A stretch of DNA of 64,000 nucleotides from Mesostigma viride (taxonomy: Eukaryota > Streptophyta > Mesostigmatophyceae > Mesostigmatales > Mesostigmataceae), in NCBI GenBank assembly GCA_009746045.1, contig RPFO01000436.1, positions 1,303,772-1,367,771 on the forward strand, read 5' to 3'. Each line of letters opens with the position of its first letter. Position 1 is the first letter of the stretch. The notes beneath the pieces were generated by a model. That model was not told the origin of the DNA and did no database searches. It saw only the letters and a program-made list of their open reading frames with translations. Below, in pieces: positions 36,965-62,752 of the stretch. The translations under genes and the position numbers were made by a program.

Positions 36965-37642
36965 TGGTTGATCTTACGATCTGGATTCCCTGATTTGCGA
37001 CTAAGGGGAGCGGAGTGCGAGTCGGTGCCGCTGCCTCATGGCTGATCTGCGAGAAATGCTCCTGGAAAGGGTGAAAGTCCCTGCAAATGACCTCTGGACT
37101 GCTTCCAAGTACTTGGATGTAGTTCAAAGTACTTCATTGGTACTACAGGGTAGTACAATCTACTTCAAACTAGTTCAAACTAGCTCAGGCTAGTAAAGAT
37201 TCGTTCAGGTGTAGCACAACCTGCCTAGGAGGTGGTATGACCTCCTGGATTGAAGTAGACAGTGACTAAACGTAGTACAATGTCGAAAGAATCAGTACAA
37301 ATGGGTTCTTTGTAGTACAACTGTTCAGTGGCACCTGGGCGCCGCGCCAGTACTGTACCGGACTTGCATCCGTCACCGTGCGCATGCAATGCAGCCAATT
37401 TATTGAGGAAGACATGGCGGCGCATGCTTTATCAGTTTTCCCTACCCACCCACCCTCTTTTGTTTGTTTGTTCGTTTGTTGTCTCTGGGGGTGTTATATG
37501 GTGGCAGCCGCCTGGGACTTGCGCACAATTTGCCAGTCTCTCGGTCTACCAAGGCCTGCAAGCGGCTTAAGCATATAATTTTGCAATAAACAAGTTCTGG
37601 TGCCTTCTCAAACAAAGTGAACCTGAAAGCATGCACAGAGGA
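36965..37642 (+). mobile_element. E0: solo A-B unit of a YR retrotransposon, inserted in the hAT gene
   Basis: A repeat (36965-37440, TGGTTGATCTTACGATC... TTATCAGTTTTC), a pyrimidine-rich spacer (CCCACCCACCC then TTTGTTTG), and B repeat (37488-37642, with AATAAA, ending GCACAGAGGA). No internal coding sequence. This is what A1-A2 recombination of an A-ORFs-B-A-B element would leave, analogous to a solo LTR. No target duplication; the flanking hAT frame rejoins in phase. Confidence 0.85.
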
Positions 37643-39210
37643 GGTCGTTGTTCATGCATTCCCACCGGCTGCGCCAGATGTCCAGCACGTCGCCCCTGCG
37701 CTTCTTGTCGGCGATGAGAACCTCCTCCCTCTGCGGGTTGGATGCCTCCAAGGCCTTCTGCACGTCCAGCATGGACGCGTAGATCGTGCCCATGCTGGCC
37801 CGCCGCCCATCGACCTCGCGCAGGACCTTGTACATCAGCTGCAAGACCTGCATCACATTGCCGAGCTCCTGCCACAGCCCCTCGTCCAGGATCAGCGAGC
37901 GCACCTCCCTGGCCTCTGCCGTCCAGTCCTTGTTGGCGGTCGCCTTCCTCCACTGCTTGGAGGCGACCATAGTGGCCAGCGTGTCCTGCTCGTCGTAGCA
38001 CTTCTTCGCGCACAGGAAGTTCTTGGCGAACCGCGTCTCGGGCGGCAGGTTGAGCGCGCCCCTGTCGTAGCTGCGCCAGAGGGAGAGCGTCGCATCGTGG
38101 GCGCGGATGAACTTGGAGATCTGGCGACACGCTGCCAGTTGCTCCTTCACCCATGGCAGGTCGCCCACGTCCTCGAACGCCAGGTTGATGACGTGAGCAG
38201 AGCACCACGCGGGCGTGATGTGCTCGAAGCCCTTCGTGGCCGCCACCTCGTCGCATGCATTCTGGCACGCACTTGCTCCATCCATCAAGATCAGGATGTA
38301 GTTCTCAGGCCCGTGCCTCCTCATGACCACCTTGCAGGCCTTGCCCAGATAGGCAGAGTTCTTGTACTGGCCAGAGGCGTCCAGCGCGTCCTCAAAGATG
38401 GCGATGCCGTTGGTGACGCTGAGAAAGTTGACGATGGGCTTCTTGTTTACATTCGTGCAGGAATCAGAAACGAGGGTCCAGCTGTAACGGTTGTTCTTGG
38501 CCCTGAGATCCTCGACAGCCACCTGCACGCTCTCCTTCTTCTTCACGAGAAGCTCGCCACCCAACAACTGCCGAGAAGAAGGGGTGACGTGCCCTCCTCT
38601 GTACTGGACCATGCCGGCCACCATCTGCTTGAAAGAGGCGCTCTCAGCCGCATTGAAGGCAATGCCGTTCTCGATAAAAAATTCGGCAGCCAGCAGCTGG
38701 ACACCTTTCTCGTCGACGGGAACCAGCCATTTGGTGATGCTCAGCTGGCCTTTGCTGGGAACCGACGACAAGTCAGCCGGCGCAGCCCCTCCCCTCTCCG
38801 CCATTGCCCTGTTCAAATTGTGCTGCTTCTTGGCGTCTGACTGCTGCGACTTGTTGTTATACATCCTGAGAAACTTGCTCCGGATATTCGGTGGAATTTT
38901 GTCGCAGGGTAACATCCCTTCCCCTGCGATTCCGGCAAAGTGTGCACGGACTCGGAATACGCTGATTGCCCCCGCCCCGTATGAGAACTTCTTGTTGCAA
39001 AATGAGCAGAACTTATTCGACACAAACTGCGTTTTGTTACTAACAGCATCTGTGACTGCTTCTTTCTTCTCGAGAACGAAATCCCATTCAGGCCCTTTCT
39101 TCCTCATGGCTGCAAATCGAAAATGGCTGCACACTGTCGCACAGTCGCACTGGCCTCGTCGTCGCTATATTGCATTACACCGTCAGTAGCACAGCTGGCA
39201 TTTGCTGGCA

Positions 39211-39686
39211 TGGTTGATCTTACGATCTGGATTCCCTGATTTGCGACTAAGGGGAGCGGAGTGCGAGTCGGTGCCGCTGCCTCATGGCTGATCTGCGAGA
39301 AATGCTCCTGGAAAGGGTGAAAGTCCCTGCAAATGACCTCTGGACTGCTTCCAAGTACTTGGATGTAGTTCAAAGTACTTCATTGGTACTACAGGGTAGT
39401 ACAATCTACTTCAAACTAGTTCAAACTAGCTCAGGCTAGTAAAGATTCGTTCAGGTGTAGCACAACCTGCCTAGGAGGTGGTATGACCACCTGGGTTGAA
39501 GTAGACAGTGACTAAACGTAGTACAATGTCGAAAGAATCAGTACAAATGGGTTCTTTGTAGTACAACTGTTCAGTGGCACCTGGGCGCCGCGCCAGTACT
39601 GTACCGGACTTGCATCCGTCACCGTGCGCATGCAATGCAGCCAATTTATTGAGGAAGACATGGCGGCGCATGCTTTATCAGTTTTC
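39211..39686 (+). repeat. A1 repeat of E1
   Basis: 476 bp, near-identical to the A repeats at 36965, 59662, 61617 and 63060. Contains iterated CTAGTT/CAAACTAG motifs and GTACTT repeats. Confidence 0.92.
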
Positions 39687-39778
39687 TTTGCCGTTTCTTG
39701 GTCAAAATCACTCGTTCTTTTTGCGCTCTTTAAAGCTCGATAATTTCCACGTCATATCAAGTGATTTTGCAGCAAAAA

Positions 39779-40439
39779 ATGGGGTCGAAAGAGCCCATTC
39801 CGAGAGGTTTCGCGCAAACTGCACGAAATCTTTATTTTGCAGCAAATAAGGATAGCACTTCGTTGGCCACTTTGATAGTGGGTTCCCTCGGTCCTGCCTA
39901 CAAGGCAAGACTTGCAGCTTCTTCAAAAAGTCCCTTAGACTCATTAGGACGGTATTTGGTGAGTGTGGGATATGAAATAGAAGCTAGCAGCGAGCCAGCA
40001 CAACTGGGAAAGAATATCGCGTTTTCCTTGGAGCACAAACTGCCAGAGGGGTTCCTGGCCGAAATGGGGGCCGAGGAGGGCTTCGTAGGCTCTGAGGAGG
40101 CCGAAGATATGTTGGGGGACATGTCTGGGGCCTCTGGAGATGAGCAGAATGATGGGGCGCCTCAAGCTGCGAATTTTTCCAATGATTTGGCAAAATTTGC
40201 GGCAACCATGGGCAACATGAGCATAGAAGCCCTAGGATCGGCTCAGGAGACTGGCACAGGTCTCCCAGGGGGTGGGGAGACTGTTGGCAGAGGTGCCACG
40301 CCATTTGCTGGGCGAGGGAAGGTGGTGGGAGGCACCCCCCTGGTGGCTGGAGGGGCCAGGGGAAAGGGGGTAGGGGGCACGGCCCCAACTGTGGGGGGGG
40401 GGCGCAGCGGTGGCAAGGGAGGGGCTGCGGGGGCCCACC
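39779..40439 (+). pseudogene. E1 gag, N-terminal part
   Basis: Starts MGSKEPIPRGFAQTARNLYF, aligning with the gag starts of E3 (MASDHEDTT) and E4 (MASGDENAS): each has a ~90-residue helical segment with LGPxY/W, then an acidic region and a Gly-rich linker. The frame runs into the inverted A fragment at 40440 and would end in it, so this copy of gag is interrupted. A1 lies 92 bp upstream and presumably supplies the promoter and leader. Confidence 0.75.
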
Positions 40440-40868
40440 TGCATTGCATGCGCACGGTGACGGATGCAAGTCCGGTACAGTACTGGCGCGGCGCCCAGGT
40501 GCCACTGACCAGTTGTACTACAAAGAACCCATTTGTACTGATTCTTTCGACATTGTACTACGTTTAGTCACTGTCTACTTCAACCCAGGAGGTCATACCA
40601 CCTCCTAGGCAGGTTGTGCTACACCTGAACGAATCTTTACTAGCCTGAGCTAGTTTGAACTAGTTTGAAGTAGATTGTACTACCCTGTAGTACCAAAGAA
40701 GTACTTTGAACTACATCCAAGTACTTGGAAGCAGTCCAGAGGTCATTTGCAGGGACTTTCACCCTTTCCAGGAGCATTTCTCGCAGATCAGCCATGAGGC
40801 AGCGGCACCGACTCGCACTCCGCTCCCCTTAGTCGCAAATCAGGGAATCCAGATCGTAAGATCAACCA
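40440..40868 (-). repeat. Truncated inverted A repeat inside E1 gag
   Basis: Reverse complement of the A repeat from its TGGTTGATC start (right end here) to GCATGCAATGCA. The last ~47 bp of A (through TTATCAGTTTTC) are missing. Gag sequence resumes directly on the right. Confidence 0.88.
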
Positions 40869-41424
40869 GACCCCGCCATGATGGCCCGCATGGGCGCCGT
40901 CATGGGAGGACAGGGGGTGATGGGTGCGGGGGGGGGGGGGGGCCCTGCCGGCTTGCAGGGAGGAGGGCACCCCCCATTGGGCCCTGCACTGCGAGTGCCG
41001 GGTGGGCACACCCCTCAAACCCACCCCGGGATAGCCCCACTGTGGGCTGGTGGCCTGCACGCCACGGGGGTAGCCCCTCCATGGGGGTACACCAGTGGGG
41101 CAGGGGAAGGAGCAGTGCCAGGGGGCGGTTACTGGGTGCCTGCCCCCCCCCCGGGGTACTGGGGAGCCGGGTGGCCGGGGGCTGGAGGCCCAGGCACTGG
41201 GGAAGAGCCCCGGGGCGGCCAGGGGGGATGGGTGACGGCCCCCGCGTCCGTGGCGGGGGACGAGGAGCCTGCAGAGGGGTATCCCTTGCACAGCTCACAC
41301 CCAGCGGCCCAGCAAGGGGCGCGGGGGGGTGGGACAATCCTGCCCGGCGCCAAACCAGTGGCCCCAGCACCGGCGCGAGCCAAGGCAGCCAAGTGTCCCA
41401 AGTGCCGCCATCGCACGTGCCGTT

Positions 41425-41463
<39 letters not shown>

Positions 41464-42097
41464 GCAGCGACTCGGGCCGGCGCAGCAGCAGCCGGCGCCG
41501 CAGGGACCGCCTACCGGGTCGCGCCGACCCAGCGAGCGGCCAGGTGTTGGCTGTGCCCATGACCAAGGGGGTCGCCCTGCCGGGGACTGCCACCAGCATC
41601 CCTTGGGAGGTGGAGGACTACCGGTACAAGCTGCGGGTGCTGCCCGAGTACCTGCAAACGGCCAAGGACCGGTACGGGGGCAGTCTGCGGGCCCGGCTGG
41701 AGGGCCTGAAGCCCATGTTCATCCGTGGGCCAGGCCAGACCAGCGGGTGGCAGAGTCGCGAGCGCATGGACATCGCGGTCAACCTGTGCCACGCCCTGGA
41801 CGTGGCGGTGAAGGAGCTGGGAGTCACGGCGGTGACCGAGCTCGCGTGCATGGAGTACTTTGCACGCATCGTGGAGTCACTCATGGTGGTGGAGAGCGAG
41901 CGGGGCCAGGGCGCGTGGGTCGCCCAGGCCGCCTTCGTGCTGCCGGTGGTGGAGAGCGGCAGCCAGCGGACGAGGGCGGCGCGACGGGCTCTCAAGGCCG
42001 CCAAGAAGGAGCACGACGCGCGGGTCAGCGCGGCGGTGCTGGCCAAGGTGGATGGGGGGCGGTGGCCTCCTCCTCCGCCAGCAACAAGCAGAAGTGA
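40869..42097 (+). pseudogene. E1 gag, C-terminal part (Gly/Pro linker, Cys cluster, RS-like tract, conserved C-terminal domain)
   Basis: Resumes at MMARMGAVMGGQG, matching E4 MMAQMNALMGG. A long Gly/Pro-rich linker leads to CPKCRHRTCRC (CxxCxxxxCxC), a Ser run encoded by CAG-type repeats, SSDSSSDSGRRSSSRRRRDR, then the conserved capsid-like C-terminal domain (SGWQSRERMDIAVNLCHALD, ELACMEYFARIVESLMVVES, RTRAARRALKAAKK). The expected end is NKQK-stop at 42097, but the frame shifts near a G6 run at ~42053-42058. The gag stop overlaps the pol frame (AAG TGA versus GTG AGG, -1). Confidence 0.75.
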
Positions 42098-45000
42098 GGG
42101 GGCGCGGCGTGTTCCCCCTCCCAGTTCCGGCCGTCCAGCCCCTCGACCGGTCCCGCCTGCGCTCACGACGCAGGCTGCAGCGAGCCACGCGGCGGCGGGC
42201 ACGCTTGCTGCTCATGGTCCGGCTCGTGGAAGGCCTGAACTGGATGTGGGGGGGGACACGGGAACCGCCTGTGGGGGCGGCCGGGTGTGGGGCGGGGCCA
42301 GCAATGGCCACGCCTGCCGGCGGGCCCCCAGGGCGCGGCACTGGCGGGGCGACGGCAACGGCTCCCTGCACCGCTGCCCAGCAGGCGGCCCTACAAGGGC
42401 TGGAGATTGCCGCCCAGGTCCATGAGCGCCGGCTGAGAGCCGTAGCGGCAGAGGACCTGGTGCATGACGTTGAGTCTGGGCCCTATGGGCCCGACGGGCA
42501 ATATGAAATGATTGTCCCAGAGAGACTTGCGCTGCCCGCGGGCGGAGTGGCGGGCAGCGAGCCGCTGATGGACTGCCTCCCCCCCCAGTGGAGGGAGGTA
42601 TATGGCGACATAAAAAATATTTTGAGGGAGGAGGAGGTAGTGCAGCCAGGGCGTCGACGGCGAGTGACGCATGGCTGTGCGAGCGACACAGAGTACGCGC
42701 GCCTGAGCGTGCGGCTGGCGGAGACCGGGATGACAGAGTACAGCGAGGAGGAGCCCCCGGTCACCAACGGCCTGTTCGGCGTGCCCAAGCGCGATCCAGG
42801 GGTGGTGGACCCGTCAGCCCAGCGCCAGCGACTCATCTGCAACATGGTGCAGAGCAACGACAAGTTCCTCACCCCTGGCGGCTGTTACCTGCCAGATGTG
42901 GGGGCGGTGGCCGAGATGGCAGGGGGCGCGCCCAGCTACTCGAGCAAAACGGACCTGGAGACGTACTACTACCGCTTCTCCGTGCCAACGGAGTGGCGGG
43001 AGTGGTTCGCGCTGCCCCCAGTCTGGTCGGACGAGGTCGGCCAGCCCGGGGAGCGCCGCCGGCTCTATCCCAGGTTCCGTGTTCTGGTGATGGGGTGGTC
43101 TCACTCGGTCCTGCTGGCGCAGGTGGCGCACATGCAGACCCTGTTCGGGCCGGGGAAGCTGAACCCCGGGCTGAGTGTGAGCGTCCCGCTGCTGCCCGAG
43201 GACCCTACTCGGCCGGCGCAGTTGGTCATGATCGACGACCTGGGCACCACACACGCGCGCAGCGCAGCGGAGGCGAACGCGCTGCTGGACCGCGCATGCA
43301 CCGAGTGCTACACGCCAGCTGGCCTGGTGGTGAATGAGAAAAAGGTCGAGCGGGCGCGGGAAGGTCAAGCTATGGAGATCCTGGGTATCGAGTTTCACCA
43401 AGATGGGAGCTTGTGGCCGTCGGCGAAGCGACTGGCCCTCCTGGTCCACGACACCGAGGCGGTGCTGGCCCGGGGACGTGCAAGCTACCATGAGTTGGCC
43501 TCCCTACTGGGACGCTGGGTATGGATCCAGCTGCTGCGCAGGAGTCTGCTAAGCACCTGGTTCCACGCCTACAGGATGCTCCACCAAGTGCTGGCCCTCC
43601 GCAAGGGAGGACGCTTCCAACTCTGGGCAAGTGTGCGCCGGGAGCTCTGGGCGGCTGTCTGCCTGGCCCCCCTGGTGCATGCGCAGCGCAACCAGCCGCT
43701 GGACACCACCGTCGTGGCCAGTGACGCGTCGAGCCGGGGCTCCGGTGTGGTGTACGCCCGTCTGGCAGAGGCAGACGTGAAGGTTTTGTCCAACTGCCGT
43801 GAGATAAAGGGGTGGAAGACTCTGTGTGTCGGGTCGGAAGAGGTCGGTGTGGAGCGAACGGGGGAGAGGGTGCATCGGGCGGTGGCGACCGCCCGCTGGC
43901 GTGTGGCGGTGAAACACCGGTGGAGGGACGCGGGGGCGCACATCAATGAGAAAGAGGCGCGCGCAGCCGTGCAGAGCCTGGAGTGGGGGCTGCGCACGCG
44001 GGCGCGGTGGGGGCGACGGCACGTACGGCTGGTGGATAACACCGCCGTTGTGGGCGCAGTGGTGAAGGGGCGGTCATCATCTTACCGCCTCAACACGTGG
44101 TGCCGCCGCGCTGCCGCCCTGGGCTGTGCCAGCAACACCAGGTACCACTGGGTGTACATCCGCTCGGAGGGAAACCCCGCTGACGCGCCCAGCCGGGGCC
44201 GGTGGGTGCGGGACCTTACCGCCGATGGCGATGTGGAGAGTAACCCGGGGCCGGGAGGGCGGCAGGAACTGCTGGAGAGCACCGTGCTGCCCGCGACCCT
44301 GCGCAGCTACCATCGCGCAGTGATCGCGTACCTCCTGTGGGCTGAGCCCTATGGTGCTGTACCGCCGGAGGAAGCGGAGAGCGTGTTCTGCGAGTGGCTC
44401 GTGTCTGTCTACGAGGATGGAGGGGGAGCAGGGCGTTCCATGTGCATGAGGGCGCTGTGTGGGCTGCAACTGTACTACCCCAGCCAAGTGCAGGGGTGGC
44501 GCGAGGCCCGCCGGCTCCTGTACGGGTGGCAGCGACGCGTGCAAACGCATAGCCCCAATCCGGTGCCGTGGGAGCTGCTCTACCTGGTGGTGCAGCTCCT
44601 CCGCTGGCAGGGGGCGCCCATGGCAGCAGCCGTGTGCGTCATCACTTTCCAGCAATACCTGCGCATCGGGGAGGCCTTCAAGCTCCGAGTGGGGGACGTG
44701 GCACTGCGTGACGACCGTCGCCTGGGGCAGCGGGGACTGGGCGCGCTTCTTCTGCGGGATCCCAAGACAGCCAAGGGGGGTGCACAGGCGGTGGTGGTGC
44801 AGGATCCCCTCTCGCTGTACGTGCTCGAGCGCCTGTGCGCTGGGCGGGAGCCCGAGGAGCCCTTGTTTGGGAGCCTCAACTACAGCCAGTTCTCTCGTCG
44901 GTGGCACGCGGCGTGGGATGTTCTGGGCCTGCGGGGGATGTTTCCGCCCTACTCCATGCGACATGGTGGGGCAACGTACGACTACCTGCAGGGCGTTTCA

Positions 45001-45156
45001 CTCCCAGACATCCAGAAGCGCGGGCGTTGGCGCCAGTTCAAGTCGGTGGACCACTACGTGGGCCTGCACCGTGCTCTAGCGGTGCAAGTGCCGCGGTGGG
45101 TGTGGTTGCTGGCTGAGGAGTTCCCCCCCGCTCAGTGGAGTTCACACTGGCAGTAG
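42094..45156 (+). CDS. E1 pol: reverse transcriptase, RNase H, 2A motif, tyrosine recombinase
   Basis: A single uninterrupted frame, -1 relative to gag; no ATG near the overlap, so expression probably needs frameshifting or reinitiation. RT: VTNGLFGVPKRD, motif A SSKTDLETYYYRFSVP, motif B LVMGWSHSVLLAQ, motif C VMIDDLG (Met instead of Tyr before IDD), about 42760-43560. RNase H: VVASDASSRGSG, HINEKEARAAVQSLEWGL, RLVDNTAVVGA, EGNPADAPSRG (about 43710-44190). The 2A motif GDVESNPGP ends at 44253. The YR follows: LRIGEAFKLRV, KTAKGG, YSMRHGGATYDYL (HxxR is YxxR), KRGRWRQF, VDHYVGLHR with the nucleophilic Tyr. All other catalytic residues are present, so this is the most intact pol in the window. 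Confidence 0.9.
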   Translation: MRGRGVFPLPVPAVQPLDRSRLRSRRRLQRATRRRARLLLMVRLVEGLNWMWGGTREPPVGAAGCGAGPAMATPAGGPPGRGTGGATATAPCTAAQQAALQGLEIAAQVHERRLRAVAAEDLVHDVESGPYGPDGQYEMIVPERLALPAGGVAGSEPLMDCLPPQWREVYGDIKNILREEEVVQPGRRRRVTHGCASDTEYARLSVRLAETGMTEYSEEEPPVTNGLFGVPKRDPGVVDPSAQRQRLICNMVQSNDKFLTPGGCYLPDVGAVAEMAGGAPSYSSKTDLETYYYRFSVPTEWREWFALPPVWSDEVGQPGERRRLYPRFRVLVMGWSHSVLLAQVAHMQTLFGPGKLNPGLSVSVPLLPEDPTRPAQLVMIDDLGTTHARSAAEANALLDRACTECYTPAGLVVNEKKVERAREGQAMEILGIEFHQDGSLWPSAKRLALLVHDTEAVLARGRASYHELASLLGRWVWIQLLRRSLLSTWFHAYRMLHQVLALRKGGRFQLWASVRRELWAAVCLAPLVHAQRNQPLDTTVVASDASSRGSGVVYARLAEADVKVLSNCREIKGWKTLCVGSEEVGVERTGERVHRAVATARWRVAVKHRWRDAGAHINEKEARAAVQSLEWGLRTRARWGRRHVRLVDNTAVVGAVVKGRSSSYRLNTWCRRAAALGCASNTRYHWVYIRSEGNPADAPSRGRWVRDLTADGDVESNPGPGGRQELLESTVLPATLRSYHRAVIAYLLWAEPYGAVPPEEAESVFCEWLVSVYEDGGGAGRSMCMRALCGLQLYYPSQVQGWREARRLLYGWQRRVQTHSPNPVPWELLYLVVQLLRWQGAPMAAAVCVITFQQYLRIGEAFKLRVGDVALRDDRRLGQRGLGALLLRDPKTAKGGAQAVVVQDPLSLYVLERLCAGREPEEPLFGSLNYSQFSRRWHAAWDVLGLRGMFPPYSMRHGGATYDYLQGVSLPDIQKRGRWRQFKSVDHYVGLHRALAVQVPRWVWLLAEEFPPAQWSSHWQ
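44221..44253 (+). other. 2A ribosome-skipping motif between RNase H and YR of E1
   Basis: Encodes ADGDVESNPGP preceded by VRDLT. This is the full 2A consensus D(V/I)ExNPGP. The predicted skip is between Gly (44248-44250) and Pro (44251-44253), releasing RT-RNase H with a 2A tail and YR starting with Pro. Confidence 0.85.
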
Positions 45157-45410: not shown

Positions 45411-46192
45411 ATGCCAGCTGGTGGATGTGGGGTCGACGCGTTAAAAGGGGACTCCGTCGGCAATGCTGCCATTCCAGGAGGGCTGAGCAATGCTGGGGTC
45501 TCCGGCGGTGCGGGCGGCGATGAGCATGGGGAAGCTGCAGCACAAGCTGGAGCAGGGTCCCGGCAAGAAGGGGCAGGGCGGCCCGTCCAACAACAACAAG
45601 TGAGGGAGCGGTGCCTTCTTCCACTACCTCTTCCAGCACCCCTGCCACCTCGTGACTGGTGGCAGCAGGTACGCTCAGGCCGTAGGCGCGATAGGATGAG
45701 TCGGGCTTTTAATGCTCGCACACTAGCCTGTCAGACGGTTAGGGCGTTAAACTGGATGGGGGGGGGGGCGAGACCCGCCTGCTGTAGATTCTGCCCGTGT
45801 GCCCGGGCCTCTGCAGCAGGCGGCCCTAGATGGGATCGATGATGCTTGCAGGTCCTTTGTCCGCCGGAACGGTGGTTCCGTAGCGGCAATGGCAGGATCT
45901 GTAGTGGATGGGGGTGAATATGCTGATCGAAGGAGCCCCTTACGAACCGTTAGTGGCCGCACGCTTGGCTTTGCCTGGTCCGGGGGAAGGTGGCCAAGTG
46001 GATGTGCTGAACTTACTACCCCCCTCTTGGGGAGCAATTTTGAATGATGAGAGTAGGATGGTACGGACGCTGAGCCCAGCAGAGCGGATCTTGCAGAAGT
46101 CGATGCGGATCTCGCGGGGGTGTAGCATGGAGGAGTTCGCGCGGGTTTGCACGGTGTGTGTGGAGAGGGGGATTTTGGGTGGTTTTTTTTAG
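45411..46192 (+). pseudogene. E2 gag end and pol N-terminal region
   Basis: The gag frame ends AAC AAC AAG TGA at 45603. The -1 frame reads QQQQVRERCLLPLPLPAPLP, then TVRALNWMGGG, aligning with E1 VRGRGVFPLP...GLNWMWGG, so the gag/pol overlap is conserved. Frames then change at G-runs (45750-45770), and a third frame (45908-46192: YEPLVAARLALPGPGEGG, LNLLPPSWGAIL, FARVCTVCVERG) corresponds to the pre-RT region of E1. It ends at a T8 run just before the RT frame. Confidence 0.65.
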
Positions 46193-46204
46193 GAGGAGCC
46201 GCCT

Positions 46205-47266
46205 ATGGTGAACGGTACTTTTGGGGTCGGAAAGCCCGACGGCCGTATACGGCTGATTGAGGACAACCGGCGTGGCAACATGCCACTACCAGATCCTATG
46301 CCCGCTTTTCTACCACACCTTGGCGTGATTTGCGATTTGCCCACGCGCGCTGGGGAGGATGTTTTTGGGGGCGTATCAGATTTGGATTCGTACTACAACA
46401 GACTCCGCCTGCCAGTTTGGATGCGGCGGTACTGTGCGTGGATGCCGGTGTGGTCGGATCTGGTGGGCCTGAGTGGGGCTCGTCGGAAGGTGTGGCCGTG
46501 GATGTTGTGCTGGCCAATGGGCAACAAGCTGGCCGTCGCCGTGGCCCAGTGTGTGCATCAGTCTGTGTTGTACCGCTGTGGCCCCAAGCCACCGTTGGAA
46601 GCTAGTCGTGGGCTGAGCATCAACATGTCCGCGCTGATCCTGGTGGCGGAGGCCAACGAGGCGGGGGAGACCGTCCGGCTGAGGCTGGAGGAGGACCCTG
46701 CTGCGCCCTTGGCGCCCTCGCCGTGCTTCGAATCTCGGCAGGATCTGGAAGGTATGCATGCTGTGACGATCGATGACCTCCATTTCACCCACTGTGCGTT
46801 GGTGGATGGGGTGAATCAGCAGCTAGATCGTGTTCAGGCTGCCTACGCCGCTGTTGGGCTGGTGCAGAAGTCTGACAAGGTGGTACGGGCGACAGCAGAG
46901 CAGACTGGTGTGCAGGCGGTGGGGGTCATTCACCAAAGAGATGGTGACGTGGTGCCTGTTCCTGAGCGTGTGGTGGCAGTTATCGCTGCTACTCATAGAA
47001 TCTTAGATCGCGGGTTCACTTACTACCACGAACTTAGTTCTGTGCTTGGGAAGTGGGTGTGGATGCATCTGCTGTGCCGCCCCATGCTTTCGGTGTGGTC
47101 TGAGACGTACCGGCTGCTAGCAGCCATGAATGCCTCCCTGCCTGGGCGCCGCTGGCGCCTCCCTGCGAGGGCCCGCCAGGAGCTTCAGGCGGCGATCGAC
47201 CTGGCCCCCTTTTTGAGGGCGGCCAGGGCCCGGCCCCTTTCTGACCGGGTCGTCGCAATTAAGTGA
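46205..47266 (+). pseudogene. E2 reverse transcriptase
   Basis: 354-codon frame: MVNGTFGVGKPDGRIRLIED, motif A VSDLDSYYNRLRLPVW, motif B WPMGNKLAVAVAQ, motif C VTIDDLHFTH (Thr in place of Tyr before IDD), thumb YYHELSSVLGKWVWMHLL. It ends DRVVAIK-stop. The +1 frame directly continues SDASSSGGGVVYSS, the first RNase H motif, so a one-base shift at ~47262 separates RT from RNase H. An in-frame upstream extension across GAGGAGCCGCCT matches E1 EEEPP. Confidence 0.8.
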
Positions 47267-48763
47267 TGCGAGCAGTTCCGGCGGTGGGGTGGTCTACAGC
47301 TCCCTGACCTGCCTGGGGCCGATTGTGCCCGGCTGGCGACCCAGCGCGAAGCGCGGGGGTGGCGGACGACAGCTTTAACGTCTGGGGAGGACTGGGACCT
47401 GGAGCGCATGGAGGAGGGGGACTACAGCCTGCTGGATAGTGGCCACTGGCGTACGGCACTGTCCTACCGGTGGCGGGGGCACCCTAACCACATCAACGTC
47501 AAGGAGGCGATTGCTGCGACACAGGGGGTCGAGTGGTCGTGCCGGACCAACGCGTGTCGAGGTAAGCGAGTCGTCCGGCTCGTGGACTCCAGTGCTGTGG
47601 TGGGGGCGTTTGTCAGAGGGTCTTCCTACCGCCTCAACCAGCTGGTTCGGCGCTACTGCGCTCTGTCACTGGCTGGCGACATGCAGAGCCACTGGGTCTG
47701 GGTGGCTACCGACCACAACCCAGCTGACAAGGCCAGTCGGCGTGGCGCTTGGATTCCTGACTTGACCCGGTGTGGTGACGTGCATCCCAACCCTGGGCCT
47801 GAGGGGGCGCGACGCCCTCGGGACTTGGCACTTTTGGAGGGCACAGTCAACCCTGTGTCTACCTTGCCAGCGTACCGGCGCGCGGCGGCTGTCTACGTGG
47901 CGTGGGCGCCACCTGGCCCTGTCGACCCAGCTGACGCGGAAGCCATTTTCTGTGAGTGGATTTCTGCTGTCTACCATGCCAGAGGCGGGCGGGGGCGTAC
48001 CTTATGCCAGCACGCCAAGGCCTGTCTGCACCTGTACTACCCCGACATTGTTCGGAATTGGGTACTGGCGGACCGCCTGCTAGCAGGTTGGCAGCGGCTT
48101 GTTCCGGCTGTCAGCCCTCCGCCTATGCCCTGGCGCCTTTGCTATTTCACTGCCCTGTTGCTAGTTTCACGTCGACAGGTGCATTTGAGTGCGTTGATTA
48201 TTCTTGCTTTCCAGCAGTACTTACGCATTAGCGAGGCGCTAGGGCTGCGGGTTCGGGATGTGGCGCATCCCGGCCACCCCCTTCTCGAGCCAGGGCCCAT
48301 GGTCGGTGCCCTTGTGCTGCGCAACCCCAAAACTTCGCAGGGGGCGGCCCAGCACGTCCTCGTCCGGGATCCACTTTCTTTGTGGCTCCTGCGACGTCTG
48401 ACGACTGGCCAGCCCCCGGATGCACTCCTTTTTCGGGGCTTAACGTACAGCCAGGCTAGGCAGCAGTGGGAGGCTGTGCAGGCCCACATGGGCATCCCAG
48501 GGATGTTTTCTTTTCACAGCCTCCGGCATGGGGGGGCGACGCACGACGCCATCGCTGGCGAGTCGCCGGAGGCCATCCAGCTGCGCGGCCGGTGGGCTTC
48601 GGCCCTCTCCGTCACGCGCTACATTGGCCTCCACCGCAGCCTCCTGGGGCGTGACATCCCGCCCGCCCTCTGGGCTCAGGCCCTGGGTTTTGACCCACAA
48701 CACCTTGAAATGGCCTTTTTTTTACATAAATTATGGCCCATGGCAAGTTTATTGTCAGATTGA
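47266..48763 (+). CDS. E2 RNase H, 2A-like motif and tyrosine recombinase
   Basis: From the Met at 47408 the frame is open to 48763. RNase H motifs: HINVKEAIAATQGVEWS, RLVDSSAVVGAFVRG, DHNPADKASRRG; the first Asp motif lies upstream, out of phase. The 2A-like CGDVHPNPGP is at 47771-47800. YR: LRISEALGLRVRDV, KTSQGA, FHSLRHGGATHDAIAG (canonical HxxR), LRGRWASALS, VTRYIGLHRSLL with the Tyr nucleophile. E2 thus keeps the canonical YR histidine that E1, E3 and E5 lack. It lies on the same strand as E1, with no shared DNA-level repeats. Confidence 0.82.
47771..47800 (+). other. 2A-like motif of E2
   Basis: Encodes CGDVHPNPGP preceded by DLTR, at the same RNase H/YR boundary as in E1 and E3. It has His-Pro where the consensus has Glu-x, so activity is uncertain. 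Confidence 0.65.
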
Positions 48764-48813: not shown

Positions 48814-49288
48814 GTAGTTGAGTCAAAATGTTAAGTTTACATGGTACTCCCTGCTTAAGTTAACTCCAGATCCAAGGCAAAAACTGGCCACCTAAACCAC
48901 TTGCACTTGCATAGAAACAATAGTTGATCTCAGATTATGCTGTAACTTTGCAGTGGTGATGAATAATAGTTGTTCTGACCTTGTACAAAGTTCTACGCCA
49001 TTTGGAGCCCTAGTTGGTGACAAATGCTAGCAAAATTTTGCTAGCATTTGTCATTAATGGCCATTTTAAATCAATATTTAACCCAAATAATGTCAGAATG
49101 CCACCAAAACTTATTGCCATCATGCCAGAACCTGAAGCAAGGTCTCAACAAGTCATGAGCAGAAATTCAGATCATGCAGAGCCCAAAATGGTGACCTTTG
49201 CCAGCAATTGTCACCATTTTTTGCTTTTTTACTCGCAATTTTAACAACATTACCCACCAAAACATTCTCCAAGCTGGGGCGCATCATT
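48814..49288. other. Spacer between E2 and E3; no gene seen
   Basis: Contains a 36-bp perfect palindrome (49018-49053) and a GGTGAC/GTCACC inverted pair nearby. It looks like a small non-autonomous element relic. Confidence 0.5.
49018..49053. repeat. 36-bp perfect palindrome, no loop
   Basis: Arm TGACAAATGCTAGCAAAA followed immediately by its exact reverse complement. Confidence 0.92.
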
Positions 49289-49433
49289 CCACTGTGCATT
49301 GCCTAGGTCCACTTCTGGTTGAAGGGCACCAGAACTTGTTTATTACACTATATGTTGAAGCCGACCGGACTTAGTAGACAGAGAGACATAAAATATTTTT
49401 TGGCAGTCCCTGGCCGCCGCTTCCACTTGACCC
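49289..49433 (-). repeat. B2 repeat of E3
   Basis: 145 bp, identical by eye to B1. On the coding strand it contains AATAAA followed by CAAGTTCTGGTGCC and ends GCACAGTGG. Confidence 0.92.
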
Positions 49434-49467
49434 CCCAAGACAAAACAGAAAAGGGTGGGTGGGTGGG

Positions 49468-49977
49468 GAAAACTGATAAGCTGGCTTGGCAGCCATCACC
49501 ACCTTGAAATACATCGCATCAACGTTGCATCCGTGACACACGCAAGTGCGGCGCCCCGCTGGCGCGGCGCTCCATGTAAGAATGACCTCAGAATACTACT
49601 GTACTAGATCTAGGACCCTGATACTACTTTATTCAACATTGTACTACATTTTTATGATGTCACACATGTTCTGTCATGCCAGAACCGTTCAGCAACCACC
49701 TGGCATATCTTGAGGGTCCCTGGATACTAGTTGAAGTAGATTGAACTAGTTTGAACTAGTTTGTACTACCTGTACTAACTTTGAACTAGTTCGAACTACA
49801 TCTGAGGCCCATCCAAGGCTGTCAGACCCTCCAGAGAGGGCGTGGCCACCCCGTTTGGCTCCCGCATGTCGACTTGCACCACTGGGCAACGGTGTAGCGC
49901 CTCCAAGGTAGCGGCGCACCTCCATCCCTCCGCTCCCCCAGGCAAAATCAGGGAATCCCGATCGTAAGATCAATCAT
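49468..49977 (-). repeat. A2 repeat of E3
   Basis: 510 bp; on the coding strand it starts ATGATTGATCTTACGATC and ends TTATCAGTTTTC. Includes CTAGTTCAAACTAG-type iterations. Confidence 0.92.
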
Positions 49978-50122
49978 CCACTGTGCATTGCCTAGGTCCA
50001 CTTCTGGTTGAAGGGCACCAGAACTTGTTTATTACACTATATGTTGAAGCCGACCGGACTTAGTAGACAGAGAGACATAAAATATTTTTTGGCAGTCCCT
50101 GGCCGCCGCTTCCACTTGACCC
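49978..50122 (-). repeat. B1 repeat of E3
   Basis: 145 bp, directly joined to A2 and preceded on the coding strand by the conserved box GGCCAGGTTGGAGATGCGGG. Confidence 0.92.
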
Positions 50123-50212
50123 GCATCTCCAACCTGGCCGCAGGCCGTACATCTGGAAACCGCGTCAGGAGCCATGGGAGGGCACATCCTTACCCTCCAG
50201 CTGGTGAAGCCC

Positions 50213-50240
50213 TAGCGTGTCCGCTAGAGTGCGCCTCACC
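50213..50240 (-). other. E3 3'-region hairpin (covarying family)
   Basis: On the coding strand: outer stem GGTGAGG/CTTCACC, bulge CGCACT, inner stem CTAGCG/CGCTAG, loop GACA, opposing GG. Outer pairs extend the core by a few bases on each side. Confidence 0.75.
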
Positions 50241-51155
50241 GAAGTATGGCCGAAATCTACGGCCCAAAGTGACGACGCCAGTCACGGGGGGCAGTCTGCC
50301 CGCGAGGTCCCACACCACCTGGGGCACCCGCACCTGCAGGGCGCGGTGGAGCCCCACGTAATGGTCCACGGACGAAAACTGGCGCCACCGGCCACGCTTT
50401 TGGATGTCCGCGATTGGTACCCCGCGCAGGTAGTCATGGGTGGCCCCCCCGTGGCGCATGCTGTAGGGTGAAAACATCCCCCGCAAGCCAAGGAGGTCCC
50501 AGGCGGCGTGCCACCGCCGCAAGAAACGGCTGTAGCTGAGTGCGCCAAAGAGCAGCTCCTCGTGCGCCCGCCCAGCACACAGGGCGCCAAGCAACGTGAG
50601 TGAAAGGGGCTCAACAACCACCACTGCCTGGGCCTGGCCCTTGGCTGTCTTGGGGTCGCGTAGCAGCAGCGCACCCTGGTTACTGGGCCCCAGGCGGAAG
50701 TCCCCGCGCAGAGCCACGTCCCCCACGCGAAGCTTGAACGCTTCTCCGATGCGCAAGTATTGCTGAAAAACAATGATGCAGCAGCAGGCAGCTAATATCG
50801 AGCCTTGTGCACGAAGAATGTTTGCCACGAGGTACAGTAGCTGCCACGGGACGGGGTGAGGGCTCTGCACGGGAACTCGTCGCGCCCAGCCGGCCAGCAA
50901 GCGACGCGCCTCGTACCACCCCTTAATCTCGTTGGGGAAGTACAGCTGCAGCCCGCATAATGCGCGCACAACCATGGTCCGGCTTCCCCCTTCCTCATAC
51001 ACGCTGACCAGCCACTCACAAAAGACGCCTTCCGCCTCCGTCTTGGCCACGGGAGCGAGGGGTTGACCATACTCCACGTACGCCCTCAGCGCTCGGTGAT
51101 ATGCAGCTAGCGTGCTGGGCTGCACAGTGGCCTCCAGCAATTCCTGCCGCCCATG

Positions 51156-51188
51156 TGGCCCCGGATTGCTCTCCACGTCGCCATCCGC
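51156..51188 (-). other. 2A ribosome-skipping motif of E3
   Basis: Encodes ADGDVESNPGP after VRNLT, at the RNase H/YR boundary. Identical at the protein level to E1 with several synonymous differences (for example GAC/GAT, AGC/AGT, AAT/AAC), indicating purifying selection on the peptide. Confidence 0.85.
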
Positions 51189-52297
51189 AGTGAGGTTGCG
51201 CACCCATCGACCACGACTGGGCGCGTCGGCCGGGTTGCGCTCCGACCTCACATACACCCAGTGGTAGCGGGTGTTGCTGGCCAGCCCTAGCGCGATCGCC
51301 CGGCGGCACCAGGCGTTCAGCCGGTAGGACGACGAACGCCCTTTGACGAGCGCACCGACAACTGCCGAATTGTCCACCAGCCGCACGTGACGTTGCTGCC
51401 AGTGAACCTGTGAGCGCAGGCCCCACTCGATCCCTTGCACAGCCGCACGAATCTCCTTCTCGTTGATGTGGGCCGAGGGATCGAGCCACCGGTGGGCAAG
51501 AGCGGTCCTCCACTGCGCCGCTGCCATGGCTCGGTGCTCAATCTCCCCTGTGCGCTCCACGCTGGCCGTCTCAGAGTCCACACAGAGCGTCTTCCAGCCC
51601 TTCCGCTCCCGACAGTTGGACAGGCCACGCACCGCAGGCGCCTCCCACCGGCTGTACACCACCCCAGAACCGTGGGTTGACGCATCAGTGGCCACCACGG
51701 TGCAGCTCAGGGGCTGGTCGCGCTGCGCATGCACCAGCGGGGCCAAGTCCATTGCAGCCTGGAGCTCTTCCCTTACACTACCCCACAGCCGATAGCTCCA
51801 GCCCCGCTTGTGCACCAGGACTTGCTGCAGCAAGCGGTAGGCGTGAAACCAGATGGACAGTAGACCCCGACGCAGCAAGTGGACCCACACCCACCGTCCC
51901 AGCAACGAGGCCAGTTGGTGGTAAGTGGCCCGTCCACGCCCCAGCATTGCCTGCGTGTCGCGCACCAAGGCCGCCATCCGGGCCGCGCTCGGCCGCATGG
52001 ACCCGTCCTGGCAGAACTCAATCCCCAAGATTTCCACCGGGCGCCCCTCCTCAGCTCTCTCCACCTTCTTCTCGTTGACCACCAACCCCTTGGGACCGTA
52101 GCTCTCCTCGCACGCCTTGGTGAGCACGGCGTTGGTCTCCTCCGCGCTCCGCCCATGGGTGACCCCCAGATCATCGATCATGACCAGCTGAGCGGGATGT
52201 GGGGGATCCTCCGGCAGCAGCCGCCACGCTGCACTGGCTGCGCTCTCCACCAACTCCAGCCGGTCCATGCCATCCCCGCGCACTGTGCGCACCCCCA

Positions 52298-52735
52298 TCA
52301 AGTGCATGGGATATGACAGCCCTCTCTTGGCATCGAGCACCCCGCCCCGTAGAGACAGTGCAGGTGGGCAACCTGTGCAAGGACCACCGAGTGGCTCCAG
52401 CCCATGACAAGGACCCGGAACCTGGGGTACAACTTTCGCCGTCGTCCCAGCTGGCCGACCTCATCGGACCACACGGGGGGCAGCGAGAAATAGGGGCGCC
52501 AGCTCTCAGGTACCTCGAACCGGTAATAGTAGGTGTCAAGGTCTGTCTTGCCCGAATAGCATGGCGCCCCCACACTCAGCTCAGCGACCTCGCCCAAGTT
52601 AGGCAGGTAACAGGTAGGCGGCTTGAGGAAGCGCCGGTTGCACGGCACCATATTCCCTATAAACCGCTGCCGTCGTTCGCTGGGCTCCACAACCCCGGGG
52701 TCTTTCTTGGGGACGGCAAAACAGCCGTTCACCAC
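52298..52735 (-). pseudogene. E3 RT, N-terminal palm region (middle frame)
   Basis: Frame MVNGCFAVPKKDPGVV, then CNRRFLKPPTCYLPNLGEVA, motif A SGKTDLDTYYYRFEVP, motif B LVMGWSHSVVLAQ. Upstream it must join EYSEEAP in the preceding frame; one base appears to be missing in a C4 run (E1 has the equivalent CCCCC). Downstream it joins the YR frame through a second one-base shift near 52340. Confidence 0.8.
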
Positions 52736-53352
52736 AGGGGCGCCTCCTCACTGTACTCGATCATCCGCGTCTCCGCCAGCCTGATGCTCAGTCGTGCGTA
52801 CGCCGCATCGCTTGCACAACCATGAGACACCCGGCCCCGCCGCATCCACGCCCCCGCCTCCGCGTCGCATCTTTGTAGAATGTTGTTTATGTCCTCATAC
52901 GTCCTCTGCCATGCCTCCGGCAGGCAGTCCAGCAGCTTGACACTACCTGCAGCTCCTCCTTTTGGCAGTGCCAGCCTCTCCGGGTCAATAATTTCGTATT
53001 GACCGCCCGGCCCGTATGGCGCGGGCTCTGCGTCCCCCGTGTCTGTCGCCTCCGCTACGGCGGTAAGCCGGCGGTTGTAGACGCGGGCAGCATCCTCCAT
53101 CCCTTGTAGGGCGGCCCTTTGGGCGACGGTGCAGGGGCTCGCAGTAATAGCCTGCTGCTGCACCGCCGGTCCACCGGACCGTTCCCGGGTCCTGCCCCAC
53201 AGCCAGTTCAGGCCCCTTGTGGCCCGCTCTTGACACCGCAGCCTTGCTCTGGCACGCAGAGCGCGCTGCAGCCTGCGGTTGGATCGCAGGCGGCTGCGGT
53301 CGAGCGGGGGGACCATCTTCACTGGCAGCGGGAGCACACCCCTGCCCCTCAC
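52729..53352 (-). pseudogene. E3 pol, 5' part (pre-RT region)
   Basis: The frame overlaps the gag end in the -1 phase and reads GQVRGRGVLPLPVKMVPPLD, RGLNWLWGRTRE, AQRAALQGMEDAARVYNRR, YGPGGQYEIIDPERLALPKG, RVSHGCASDAAYARLSIRLA, as in E1. It ends at the first frameshift (EEAPLW-stop). The function of the pre-RT region is unknown; it is conserved between E1 and E3. Confidence 0.78.
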
Positions 53353-54089
53353 TTGTCCTTTTTGGCCGCCGCCGCCGCCGCCGATGCCAGCTCCGCCTCC
53401 TGGCGAGCCGCCTTCCGCGCTGCCCGGGCTGCTGCGCTTCCAATAGTACTGCCCTCCACCAGTGGCAGCAGGTGCATCGCCCCGTTGTTCCAGCCGCTGG
53501 TCTTCTCCACCATGAGGAACGCCTCGACCACACGCGCCAGGTACTCGAAGCAGGCCAGCTCCGTCACCACATCCTCCCCCAGCTCTTGGATGGCCACATC
53601 CAGAATGTAGGTCAGGTTGTTGCACACCAGATGGTGCGTGCTGTTCTTCCACCCGCGGGGGGCTCCCGGTGCAGCCCCAACGCCCTCCTGCTCCTTGCGA
53701 AGGGCCAAGCGGGCCTGCAGGCTCCCGTGCGCGACCTGGCGCGCATCCAGCACCTGCAGCGGCAGCACCCTGTCGTCGCGGTCCTTGACCAACAGGCGCC
53801 AGGCCACTTTGAAAGCTCGCCGGGGGAGACGCACCCCCTTGGTGGTTCGGCGCAGGTCTCTCTCCCTCACACGCTCCCGCGATCGACGCGAGCTCCGCTG
53901 GGAGGAGTCCCGACTCGTGCTCCGGCTGCTGGACCGCTGCCGCTCCTTGCGACGCTCGCGGGAGCGATCCCGACGCCCCTTGGGCTCCGCAGAACGGCCC
54001 CTGCCATGCCCACGTCGCTCCCGGGACTTGTCGCGGCGCGACCGAGCGCCACCCCTGCCCCTGCCACGGCCTCTGCTCTCGCTGTCGGA

Positions 54090-54143
<54 letters not shown>

Positions 54144-54869
54144 GCCGCGACTCTCGTCGCTCCCACTGCTGGTGTCTGTCGAGCCTGGGCTGCTCCCGCG
54201 CCGCGCGCGTCTCTTCTCCTGGCGCTTGCTCTTCGGATGGCCCTTGCCCCCCTTGTCCTCGCGCTGGCTCTTCCCTTTCCTCGCGTCCCTCCTCTTCCCC
54301 CGCGCCAGGGCTTGCAACTCCGCTCCGATGAGCTCGCGGACGCCCGCCAGAAGGGCAGCATTCTCTGCCAGCTTTCGGTTCCTGCCCTGAGACTTCTTTC
54401 CCTTGGCGCGAGCAGCAGCAGGGGCCAGCTGCTCGCGCGCGTCCAAAAAATCCTCAGAGCTCGTCGCGTCCTCCTCTTCCTCGTCGGTGCCGTTGCTGGG
54501 AGGATCCTTTCGGGTCCTTTCGCCCCTGGCTGGACCAGTCTTCCCCTTGCCCCCAGTGGCCACTGGGGGCTTCTTCATCTCTAGAGTAATGGCCTTGCAC
54601 AACATGGAACCCATGTCGGAATCACTTGACCCCTCACTAATCTGGAGCCCTGCAGTCTTGAGAAACTGTCCCAAGGATGTCAAACGACCCTCAGACATAG
54701 TAGTAAGCCTTTGGGCCCAGTTTGGACCGAGATACTCAGTCAAGAACTTCAAAGTCGTTAACAGCTCCTTGCCCCCCTGAAAATACGATTTTTTCACATT
54801 TAATAAGAAATCTCGGTCTACTGCCTCAAGGGTGGTGTCTTCGTGATCACTAGCCATTATAGAATTCAA
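53349..54869 (-). CDS. E3 gag with RS domain
   Basis: 506-codon uninterrupted frame, starting MNSIMASDHEDTT (the second Met aligns with other copies). The N-terminal helical domain (TEYLGPNWAQRLTTMSEGRL) is followed by an acidic/Lys region, a 12-Ser run and a long RS-like tract (RSRRDKSRERRGHG, RRDRSRERRKERQRSSS, SRRSRERVRERD), then the conserved C-terminal domain (NLTYILDVAIQELGED, ELACFEYLARVVEAFLMVEK, AAARAARKAARQE). The RS repeats resemble SR-protein domains, suggesting nuclear import or RNA binding (inference). The CxxCxxxxCxC cluster of E1/E4 is not present. A1 lies ~230 bp upstream. Confidence 0.82.
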
Positions 54870-55098
54870 AGATGAAGAAATTTCTCACAACTAGGCTCAA
54901 TATTCCGCAATCTTGGAGACTGAGAAAAATTTCGGACTGAAAATTTGTCACTCAGTTCTACCTTGCGGACTTTTACTCCCGTTGCGCAAACCCGTCAAAA
55001 CTTGGTGCGAAAACCGTCAAAATGTTGTCGGCTATTGTCTCACGATTAGTTTGACACCAACTTTGTCAAAAACGGTGAAGTATTGCTCTAGTTGTGTT

Positions 55099-55608
55099 GA
55101 AAACTGATAAGCTGGCTTGGCAGCCATCACCACCTTGAAATACATCGCATCAACGTTGCATCCGTGACACACGCAAGTGCGGCGCCCCGCTGGCGCGGCG
55201 CTCCATGTAAGAATGACCTCAGAATACTACTGTACTAGATCTAGGACCCTGATACTACTTTTTTCAACATTGTGCTACATTTTTATGATGTCACACATGT
55301 TCTGTCATGCCAGAACCGTTCAGCAACCACCTGGCATATCTTGAGGGTCCCTGGATACTAGTTCAAGTAGATTGAACTAGTTTGAACTAGTTGGTACTAC
55401 CTGTACTAACTTTGAACTACTTCGAACTACATCTGAGGCCCATCCAAGGCTGTCAGACCCTCCAGAGAGGGCGTGGCCACCCCGTTTGGCTCCCGCATGT
55501 CGACTTGCACCACTGGGCAACGGTGTAGCGCCTCCAAGGTAGCGGCGCACCTCCATCCCTCCGCTCCCCCAGGCAAAATCAGGGAATCCCGATCGTAAGA
55601 TCAATCAT
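55099..55608 (-). repeat. A1 repeat of E3
   Basis: 510 bp, about six differences from A2. It lies at the 5' end of the element on the coding strand. Confidence 0.92.
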
Positions 55609-59661: not shown

Positions 59662-60138
59662 TGGTTGATCTTACGATCTGGATTCCCTGATTTGCGACTA
59701 AGGGGAGCGGAGTGCGAGTCGGTGCCGCTGCCTCATGGCTGATCTGCGAGAAATGCTCCTAGAAAGGGTGAAAGTCCCTGCAAATGACCTCTGGACTGCT
59801 TCCAAGTACTTGGATGTAGTTCAAAGTACTTCATTGGTACTACAGGGTAGTACAATCTACTTCAAACTAGTTCAAACTAGCTCAGGCTAGTAAAAGATTC
59901 GTTCAGGTGTAGCACAACATGCCTAGGAGGTGGTATGACCTCCTGGGTTGAAGTAGACAGTGACTAAACGTAGTACCATGTCGAAAGAATCAGTACAAGT
60001 GGGTTCTTTGTAGTACAACTGGTCAGTGGCACCTGGGCGCCGCGCCAGTACTGTACCGGACTTGCATTCGTCACCGTGCGCATGCAATGCAGCCAATTTA
60101 TTGAGGAAGACATGGCGGCGCATGCTTTATCAGTTTTC
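59662..60138 (+). repeat. A1 repeat of E4
   Basis: ~477 bp, near-identical to the A repeats of E0, E1 and E5. Confidence 0.92.
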
Positions 60139-60228
60139 AAATTCGTTTTTCGGTTTTCTAAGCCATCTTTTGGCCGTTTTACCTCGGAATAGGTCCGTTT
60201 TAAAGCTAACGGCTTCCTCTTTACGAAT

Positions 60229-61616: not shown

Positions 61617-62092
61617 TGGTTGATCTTACGATCTGGATTCCCTGATTTGCGACTAAGGGGAGCGGAGTGCGAGTCGGTGCCGCTGCCTCATGGCTGATCT
61701 GCGAGAAATGCTCATGGAAAGGGTGAAAGTCCCTGCAAATGACCTCTGGACTGCTTCCAAGTACTTGGATGTAGTTCAAAGTACTTCATTGGTACTACAG
61801 GGTATTACAATCTACTTCAAACTAGTTCAAACTAGCTCAGGCTAGTAAAGATTCGTTCAGGTGTAGCACAACCTGCCTAGGAGGTGGTATGACCACCTGG
61901 GTTGAAGTAGACAGTGACTAAACATAGTACAATGTCGAAAGAATCAGTACAAATGGGTTCTTTGTAGTACAACTGGTCAGTGGCACCTGGGCGCCGCGCC
62001 AGTACTGTACCGGACTTGCATCCGTCACCGTGCGCATGCAATGCAGCCAATTTATTGAGGAAGACATGGCGGCGCATGCTTTATCAGTTTTT
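61617..62092 (+). repeat. A1 repeat of E5
   Basis: Starts TGGTTGATCTTACGATC, ends TTATCAGTTTT; joined directly to YR sequence. Confidence 0.92.
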
Positions 62093-62569: not shown

Positions 62570-62647
62570 GCAAGTGTGGGGATGCGCCTGCCCCGGTCTA
62601 GGCCGGGGGGCGCAGTATAAAACGATGCAGCTCCGTTGGAGGAGTCG

Positions 62648-62683
62648 GCAGGGCGCACTCCAGCGGACACGCTGGGGCCCTGC
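62648..62683 (+). other. E5 3'-region hairpin 1
   Basis: Same as E1 hairpin 1 (inner stem CCAGCG/CGCTGG, loop GACA). Confidence 0.8.
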
Positions 62684-62752
62684 TGGTTTTGGGCGTCACG
62701 CCATCATCCTGATTTCCGGTTTGGCTCAACTTTGACTGTATCCTGCCTTGGA

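Follow-up and report, generated by a model that had tools for sequence, protein, structure and literature searches.

The pol of E1, a split-direct-repeat tyrosine recombinase (YR) retrotransposon in the window (the whole stretch of 64,000 nucleotides of DNA that was analysed), carries a 2A peptide, VRDLTADGDVESNPGP, at the boundary between its RT-RNase H (RT-RH) and its YR. The 2A at this boundary is confirmed as real, and we consider it highly probable (about 0.86) that it is a working 2A (StopGo), where both the skipping and its use by the element are what we infer from the sequence. While pol is translated, the nascent chain ending in WVRDLTADGDVESNPG would block the Gly-Pro bond from within the exit tunnel, release factors would free the RT-RNase H with a 2A tail, and the ribosome would resume at Pro to give a free YR; in this way a single frame could give rise to a replication enzyme and, apart from it, a recombinase, with no protease needed. 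The unmade bond in E1 is predicted to lie between Gly 44248-44250 and Pro 44251-44253. In 2A systems, the upstream product is often in some excess.

An earlier reading of the sequence only had proposed a 2A peptide between the RT-RNase H and the YR of E1, and this is supported by position, class, constraint and recurrence, while the equimolar amounts of the two enzymes expected there are a presumption of that reading. The peptide is translated without a stop inside the stop-to-stop pol frame of E1 (41836-45156, 1106 codons), where the RNase H end motif NPADAPSRG is followed by the 2A-like peptide and then by the YR, in agreement with the proposal of one pol frame with the peptide between NPADAPSRG and YR. 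The AlphaFold2 model of E1 pol (34 sequences, mean pLDDT 83.9, pTM 0.62) has segments of pLDDT below 50 at residues 1-16, 18-24, 73-76, 461-477 (within the RNase H part) and 591-609; the last of these holds the 17 peptide residues (592-608 of the model), and it is the sole such segment separating the RNase H fold from the YR fold. As modelled, the peptide links two well-predicted parts and seems to belong to neither, and the frame and the model place it between two folded proteins encoded in a single open frame. The best 50 Foldseek matches listed for this model are RT or RT-RNase H chains (retroviral, pararetroviral and Ty3). Low model confidence in the linker would also suit polyprotein cutting, in which a host protease cuts the junction post-translationally and 2A skipping is marginal, and LTR elements usually use such cutting, which counts in favour of this explanation. 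However, in keeping with the lack of a protease assumed by the sequence-only reading, a Pfam scan of six E1-E3 ORFs (hits up to E 1) yielded none, and a protease site would have no need of the 2A class residues, which makes cutting by a host protease very improbable to us.

Translated in six frames, the window has two matches to the core pattern (D/G/C/N)(V/I)ExNPGP, in E1 (44230-44253, +) and E3 (51156-51179, -), and a third, in E2 (47777-47800, +), once H is allowed at p14, a rare active variant with which alone E2 fits the core. As 200 simulations of the window with an order-1 Markov model gave 0 core matches, a chance origin of the core match is rejected. Bare NPGP (4 found vs 1.8 expected) is rejected as evidence when taken alone, and it is little proof because 1.8 are expected per window by chance. 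The fourth NPGP, within GVVGQNPGP at 48678-48689 (-), falls outside the core pattern and was taken as chance.

According to the accessible text of PMC12846837, two StopGo classes have WV(R/K)DLTx[acidic]G in common, namely DLTxDG, with D at p12 and S at p15, and the offset class (R/K)DLTxE, with G at p12 and P at p15. In the same text, the examples assayed from both classes were almost 100% active (the DLTxDG one in reticulocyte lysate), mutation of class-typical residues left next to no activity in nearly every case, and the rare variants H at p14 and H at p16 were >95% active in the natural contexts assayed. By eye against this text, E1 (WVRDLTADG followed by DVESNPGP) has the upstream context of the DLTxDG class, with G at p11, D at p12 and S at p15. 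The offset class, RDLTxEGI(E/H)PNPGP with G at p12 and P at p15, is represented by P0006 (WVRDLTAEGIHPNPGP) and by P0009, P0027 and P0028 ((T/V)RDLTEEGIEPNPGP). The copies vary at p15 among S, A, R, T and P and at p14 between E and H, with H at p14 in E2 and P0006, and P0088 has H at p16; much of the peptide variation therefore appears to sit at positions that StopGo tolerates. This tolerated variation, the fit to the classes and the p12/p15 pairing argue for a working 2A, which is weakened by the departures of the hexamer from DLTxDG in E2 (DLTRCG, two residues), E3 (NLTADG, one residue), P0005 (DLAADG) and P0007 (NVTQAG).

The coordinates of the elements and of their parts are collected in Table 1.

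Table 1. Features of the three elements and of a partial copy in the window.
Feature	Position	Strand	Basis or remark
E1-family A repeat, taken as A1 of E1	39211-39640	+	98-99.5% identical copies
E1 gag region	39734-42097	+	broken by reversed A repeat 40439-40868 and a frame change; pol in another frame
E1 RT-RNase H part of pol as modelled	42430-44202	+	IDD motif 43231-43239; end motif NPADAPSRG
E1 2A/StopGo peptide VRDLTADGDVESNPGP	44206-44253 (44203-44253 with preceding W)	+	translation, class match, low pLDDT
E1 tyrosine recombinase, predicted start at Pro of NPG/P	44251-45156	+	RHGGA 44959-44973; PF00589 E=0.00026
E2 pol, ~40% identical to E1	45941-48676	+	tblastn; frame break near 47266
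E2 2A-like peptide IPDLTRCGDVHPNPGP, p14=H	47753-47800	+	in frame with RNase H end and YR (ORF 47267-48763)
E3 whole	49288-55608	-	A1 55608-55099, gag, pol, B1 50122-49977, A2 49976-49468, B2 49433-49288
E3 gag	53349-54884	-	
E3 pol, long open part (part of RT, RNase H, 2A, YR)	50190-52460	-	upstream RT broken by frame changes
E3 2A peptide VRNLTADGDVESNPGP	51156-51203	-	six-frame core search and codon comparison
E1-family partial copy without junction	59662-63737	+	A1, gag, A repeat 61617-62046, then C-terminal YR

By domain content and repeats rather than by phylogeny, E1-E3 are placed with YR retrotransposons of Ngaro-like make-up, as RT-RNase H and YR domains are both present and E3 has split terminal repeats instead of LTRs, its order A-ORFs-B-A-B being that of YR retrotransposons. 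The pol of E1 is intact, and B-A-B repeats were not found downstream of E1. The partial copy has a C-terminal YR at 62085-62564 (98%), followed by B1 (62953-63059), A2 (63060-63489) and B2 (63631-63737). Copies of the A repeat at 98-99.5% lie at 36965-37394, 59662-60092, 61617-62046, 63060-63489 and, reversed, 40868-40439, and some of those at 40439-40868, 36965-37394 and 61617-62046 may be solo repeats. The gag ends in AAGTGAGG at 42092-42099 in E1 and near 53350 in E3, and pol crosses both ends in another frame, which may be reached by frameshift or restart; the pol of E2 is divided into ORFs 46193-47266 and 47267-48763. The PF00589 match on the YR is above the Pfam cut-off in E2 (E 8.5e-8) and E3 (E 6e-7) and below it in E1. 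The profile of alignment A1 (32 chosen proteins with E1 and E3) matches weakly to Ty3 RT (E 0.0007) and to XerA and Cre (E 0.0007-0.0075 overall). No methyltransferase was hit by Pfam in the six ORFs and there is no room for one between RNase H and YR, while a diverged one elsewhere is possible. In YR box II (44950-44973), a His of E2 and of the A1 consensus is replaced by Tyr in E1 and E3, which read YSMRHGG there. Elsewhere in the window, a long open frame at 37608-39164 (-) has by eye the look of a hAT/BED-type transposase, and tandem repeats at 5101-6840 and 9158-11668 keep several frames open, on a single strand or on both.

The divergent peptide of E2 was absent from the sequence-only reading, which had described E3 as carrying the same peptide as E1 with synonymous codon differences. 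This holds for the 11 residues at 51156-51188, which are identical and differently encoded, but over 16 residues there is one difference, D to N (VRNLT). In the codon-level comparison over the junction of the three copies (E1, E2 and E3), the 17 peptide codons of E1 and E3 differ by eight synonymous changes and one amino-acid change, and pS is 0.63-0.66 in RT-RH, YR and peptide alike, whereas pN is 0.026 in the peptide vs 0.251 in RT-RH and 0.219 in YR; this constraint fits the selection on the peptide proposed before. The seven comparable codons downstream of the peptide have pN 0.167 and pS 0.25. Six of 711 sliding windows of 17 codons reach pN <= 0.026, the peptide included, and the remaining five overlap one another at residues 740-760, a YR motif. 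Compared with E2, the peptide is slightly more conserved (pN 0.297 for E1-E2 and 0.322 for E3-E2) than the domains (0.372-0.395), and the nine core codons give pN 0.197, with GDVESNPGP vs GDVHPNPGP differing at two residues. The low pN between E1 and E3, together with the sole low-pLDDT segment between the folds, supports a working 2A, while the weak constraint towards E2 lowers its probability.

The broken E1 gag and the frame-broken pols of E2 and E3 also count against a working 2A, and they would fit a relic, formerly active and now sitting in decaying copies. A relic is nevertheless hard to reconcile with the high synonymous and almost absent amino-acid divergence of the E1 and E3 peptides, nor would it account for the long open pols of P0002, P0003 and P0005 (1029-1054 aa), which retain the peptide, and we give it very little credence.

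Recurrence of the working-2A candidate was followed in protein relatives, of which the nearest, P0001, is 98% identical and has the label jgi/Mesvir1, which makes Mesostigma viride the probable host. In the first relative search (26 hits, with the 7992 candidates sharing most words scored), NPGP is at the junction in 8 of the 9 first hits (P0001-P0009), the ninth, P0008, being a gene model without the RNase H end and the YR start; absence of the motif from other family copies, which the earlier reading had named as evidence against itself, was thus not what was seen. P0007 stops shortly after its 2A and has no YR. Since the query regions contained the motif, these word-based searches favour carriers. 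The search with P0009, which has no FDSTLG motif, gave 90 hits (7994 best-sharing candidates scored), 50 of which have patterns for both the RNase H end and RHGGA and are taken as junction-spanning. Among these 50, a canonical 2A is present in three (P0009, P0027 and P0028) and a form with H at p16 in one (P0088), next to one GEAKNPGP (P0075), 39 PGEGP, five GDGP and one with none (P0073). This rarity of 2A weakens the working-2A reading: RT-RH and YR are in one frame in the junction-spanning hits, most of which are without a canonical 2A, so 2A is not required groupwide, unless the other motifs separate too. Alignment A1 shows no variation in the Gly and Pro columns of NPG/P, since PGEGP and GDGP end in GP too. 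The remote P0100 has a canonical L-rich 2A, LLICAGDVEVNPGP, whose end lies 10 residues upstream of the YR match, and the stretch preceding this 2A has a methylase look by eye.

In the concatenated tree, from which the linker was omitted, P0009, P0027 and P0028 stand beside the PGEGP elements P0029 and P0030 with support 100/96, and the tree of RT-RH alone has the same grouping (87/54); 2A rows thus occupy two places of the RT-RH+YR tree, with this trio apart from the Mesostigma clade. For a single 2A clade, in a group that was named after viewing a first tree, the AU test gave p 0.0003 on the concatenate, 0.027 on RT-RH alone and 0.264 on YR alone, and a single origin of 2A is therefore rejected on the first two but not on YR alone. 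Bootstraps are unsettled in the trees of RT-RH alone and YR alone, and the letter composition of several 2A rows is atypical. As the trees are unrooted, gain and loss of 2A are indistinguishable. The tree rows exclude P0072-P0074, P0076, the near-copies P0001 and P0004, P0007 and the junctionless P0008; the long-branched P0075 and P0088 were omitted from the RT-RH, YR and concatenated trees, and low-RT rows (E2, P0006 and other short ones) from the RT-RH and concatenated trees. Long branches came together in a quick tree that included P0075 and P0088, and the AU tests made no use of it. The two tree places, the canonical 2A of P0100 and the lack of a Pfam protease add to the case for a working 2A, from which the p of 0.264 on YR alone detracts.

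Other short motifs occupy the same place in relatives. PGEGP is at the RNase H/YR junction in 39 of the 44 proteins P0029-P0072, where P0047 and P0050 have it twice each; 39 of these 41 stretches read FD(S/A)(T/S)xG(F/Y)PGEGP, typically FDSTLG(F/Y)PGEGP, and the stretch of this type in P0031 is FDSTLGFPGEGP. Over 32 non-redundant stretches, with the PGEGP letters fixed by the search pattern, entropy is 0 bits for F, D and G, 0.6 for S, 0.2 for T, 0.4 for L and 1.0 for F/Y, vs 1.2-3.2 bits upstream and 2.4-3.7 downstream of the motif. The motif stands where P0009, P0027 and P0028 have a canonical 2A, and such replacement of one short motif by another in close relatives suggests a like function. 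PGEGP is also present in P0022, P0026, P0091 and P0093, and a hydrophobic stretch comes after it in P0022, P0091 and P0093, as though a new N-terminus were exposed. That sister elements have at the same place an equally conserved, different motif that is no known 2A would favour a conserved flexible linker or a binding motif (one that serves a host factor or acts as an N-terminal arm of the YR), a 2A lookalike that stops no ribosome. However, E1 and the P0009 group fit two separate StopGo classes, assayed as described in the accessible text of PMC12846837, down to the p12/p15 pairing, and the simulations yielded no core match by chance; we hold a lookalike to be unlikely, and a working 2A remains our preferred reading.

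The degenerate patterns FDSTLG(F/Y)PGEGP and DLTx(D/E)GD(V/I)ExNPGP had 0 matches in IMG/VR, the FDSTLG pattern had 0 in bacterial and archaeal genomes (GTDB), and one 34-residue linker had 0 PDB hits. The single A1 match in IMG/VR (locus L001) is by reading a prokaryote-type integrase and was set aside, and the 26 GEAxNPGP stretches in IMG/VR, six of them in frame in an ORF >250 codons, look unrelated by eye. In elements of dinoflagellate type, GEAxxPGP precedes the YR in 123 of 123 examined (120 listed among 158 matches and three from the first relative search), mostly 320-340 residues from the end, in a sample biased by a query region that held the motif; RIGEA in the E1 YR is a coincidence. 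A minority of the GEAxxPGP proteins are labelled dinoflagellate. Carriers of GEAx(N/H)PGP are seven of P0011-P0020 and P0116-P0231. At p16 the 123 proteins have N (90), H (27) or another residue (six), both N and H being active letters in StopGo (PMC12846837, accessible text), but E at p13 and A at p14 depart from the known 2A core. When 20 further proteins were compared with RT and YR profiles, seven (P0010, P0073, P0074, P0076, P0078, P0098 and P0114) showed neither of the motifs, so a universal separator slot is unsupported. To hypothesize, the RNase H/YR junction of algal and protist YR retrotransposons (in P0100 apparently methylase/YR) could be a slot for co-translational separation that was filled several times, by canonical 2A of three classes, by a non-canonical dinoflagellate-type StopGo GEAx(N/H)PGP and possibly by a new separator, FDSTLG(F/Y)PGEGP, with at least one of these two non-canonical motifs active; to this we would give even odds.

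If the working-2A reading is true, YR retrotransposons can obtain a free recombinase from a single frame with no protease involved, and the family of E1 supplies active-looking 2A sequences from an alga. That one site holds 2A in some elements and FDSTLG(F/Y)PGEGP in others offers a direct route in the search for new separator peptides. 2A is known from RNA viruses and LINEs, and in YR retrotransposons it is apparently undescribed as far as could be checked. LINEs, to our knowledge, are without a YR. A survey by Rao and colleagues is said to deal with eukaryotic and viral 2A sequences. With this survey (Rao et al. 2025, Cell Rep 44:115822) outside the comparison, no published 2A in a YR retrotransposon or DIRS element was found, so the literature search agrees with the sequence-only reading, which knew of no report, but priority is unestablished. 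In the literature searched, no match was found for FDSTLG, GFPGEGP, GYPGEGP, GEAKNPGP, GEASNPGP or RDLTADGDVE, the terms '2A-like', 'skipping' and 'NPGP' are absent from the main text on Symbiodinium DIRS elements (PMC5890265), and no dinoflagellate case is among the literature matches listed.

The StopGo motif-4 and motif-1 classes of RNA viruses (PMC12846837, accessible text) share with E1 the core octamer, WV(R/K)DLTx[acidic]G, the p12/p15 pairing and the place between two proteins of one frame, but the host element here is a retrotransposon of a probable streptophyte alga. In the same text, six plant-virus StopGo cases are judged likely host misclassification, so that this viral survey has no convincing plant-virus case. 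E1, if active, would put StopGo to natural use in the green lineage. The literature on retrotransposon 2A, in the parts accessible, concerns non-LTR elements (L1Tc and APE-type LINEs; Heras 2006, Odon 2013), where 2A is likewise retrotransposon-coded, whereas the 2A of E1 parts RT-RNase H from a C-terminal recombinase. With Ngaro, PAT and DIRS elements, as described in the accessible text of PMC3266345, PMC4157794, PMC8547959 and PMC6681497, which also mentions single-ORF TATE copies for B. saltans, the elements of the window share gag, RT-RNase H, YR, split direct repeats (E3) and the lack of a detected methyltransferase; unlike those elements, where RT-RH and YR are in separate or overlapping ORFs, E1 encodes both in a single frame and has a 2A where they meet.
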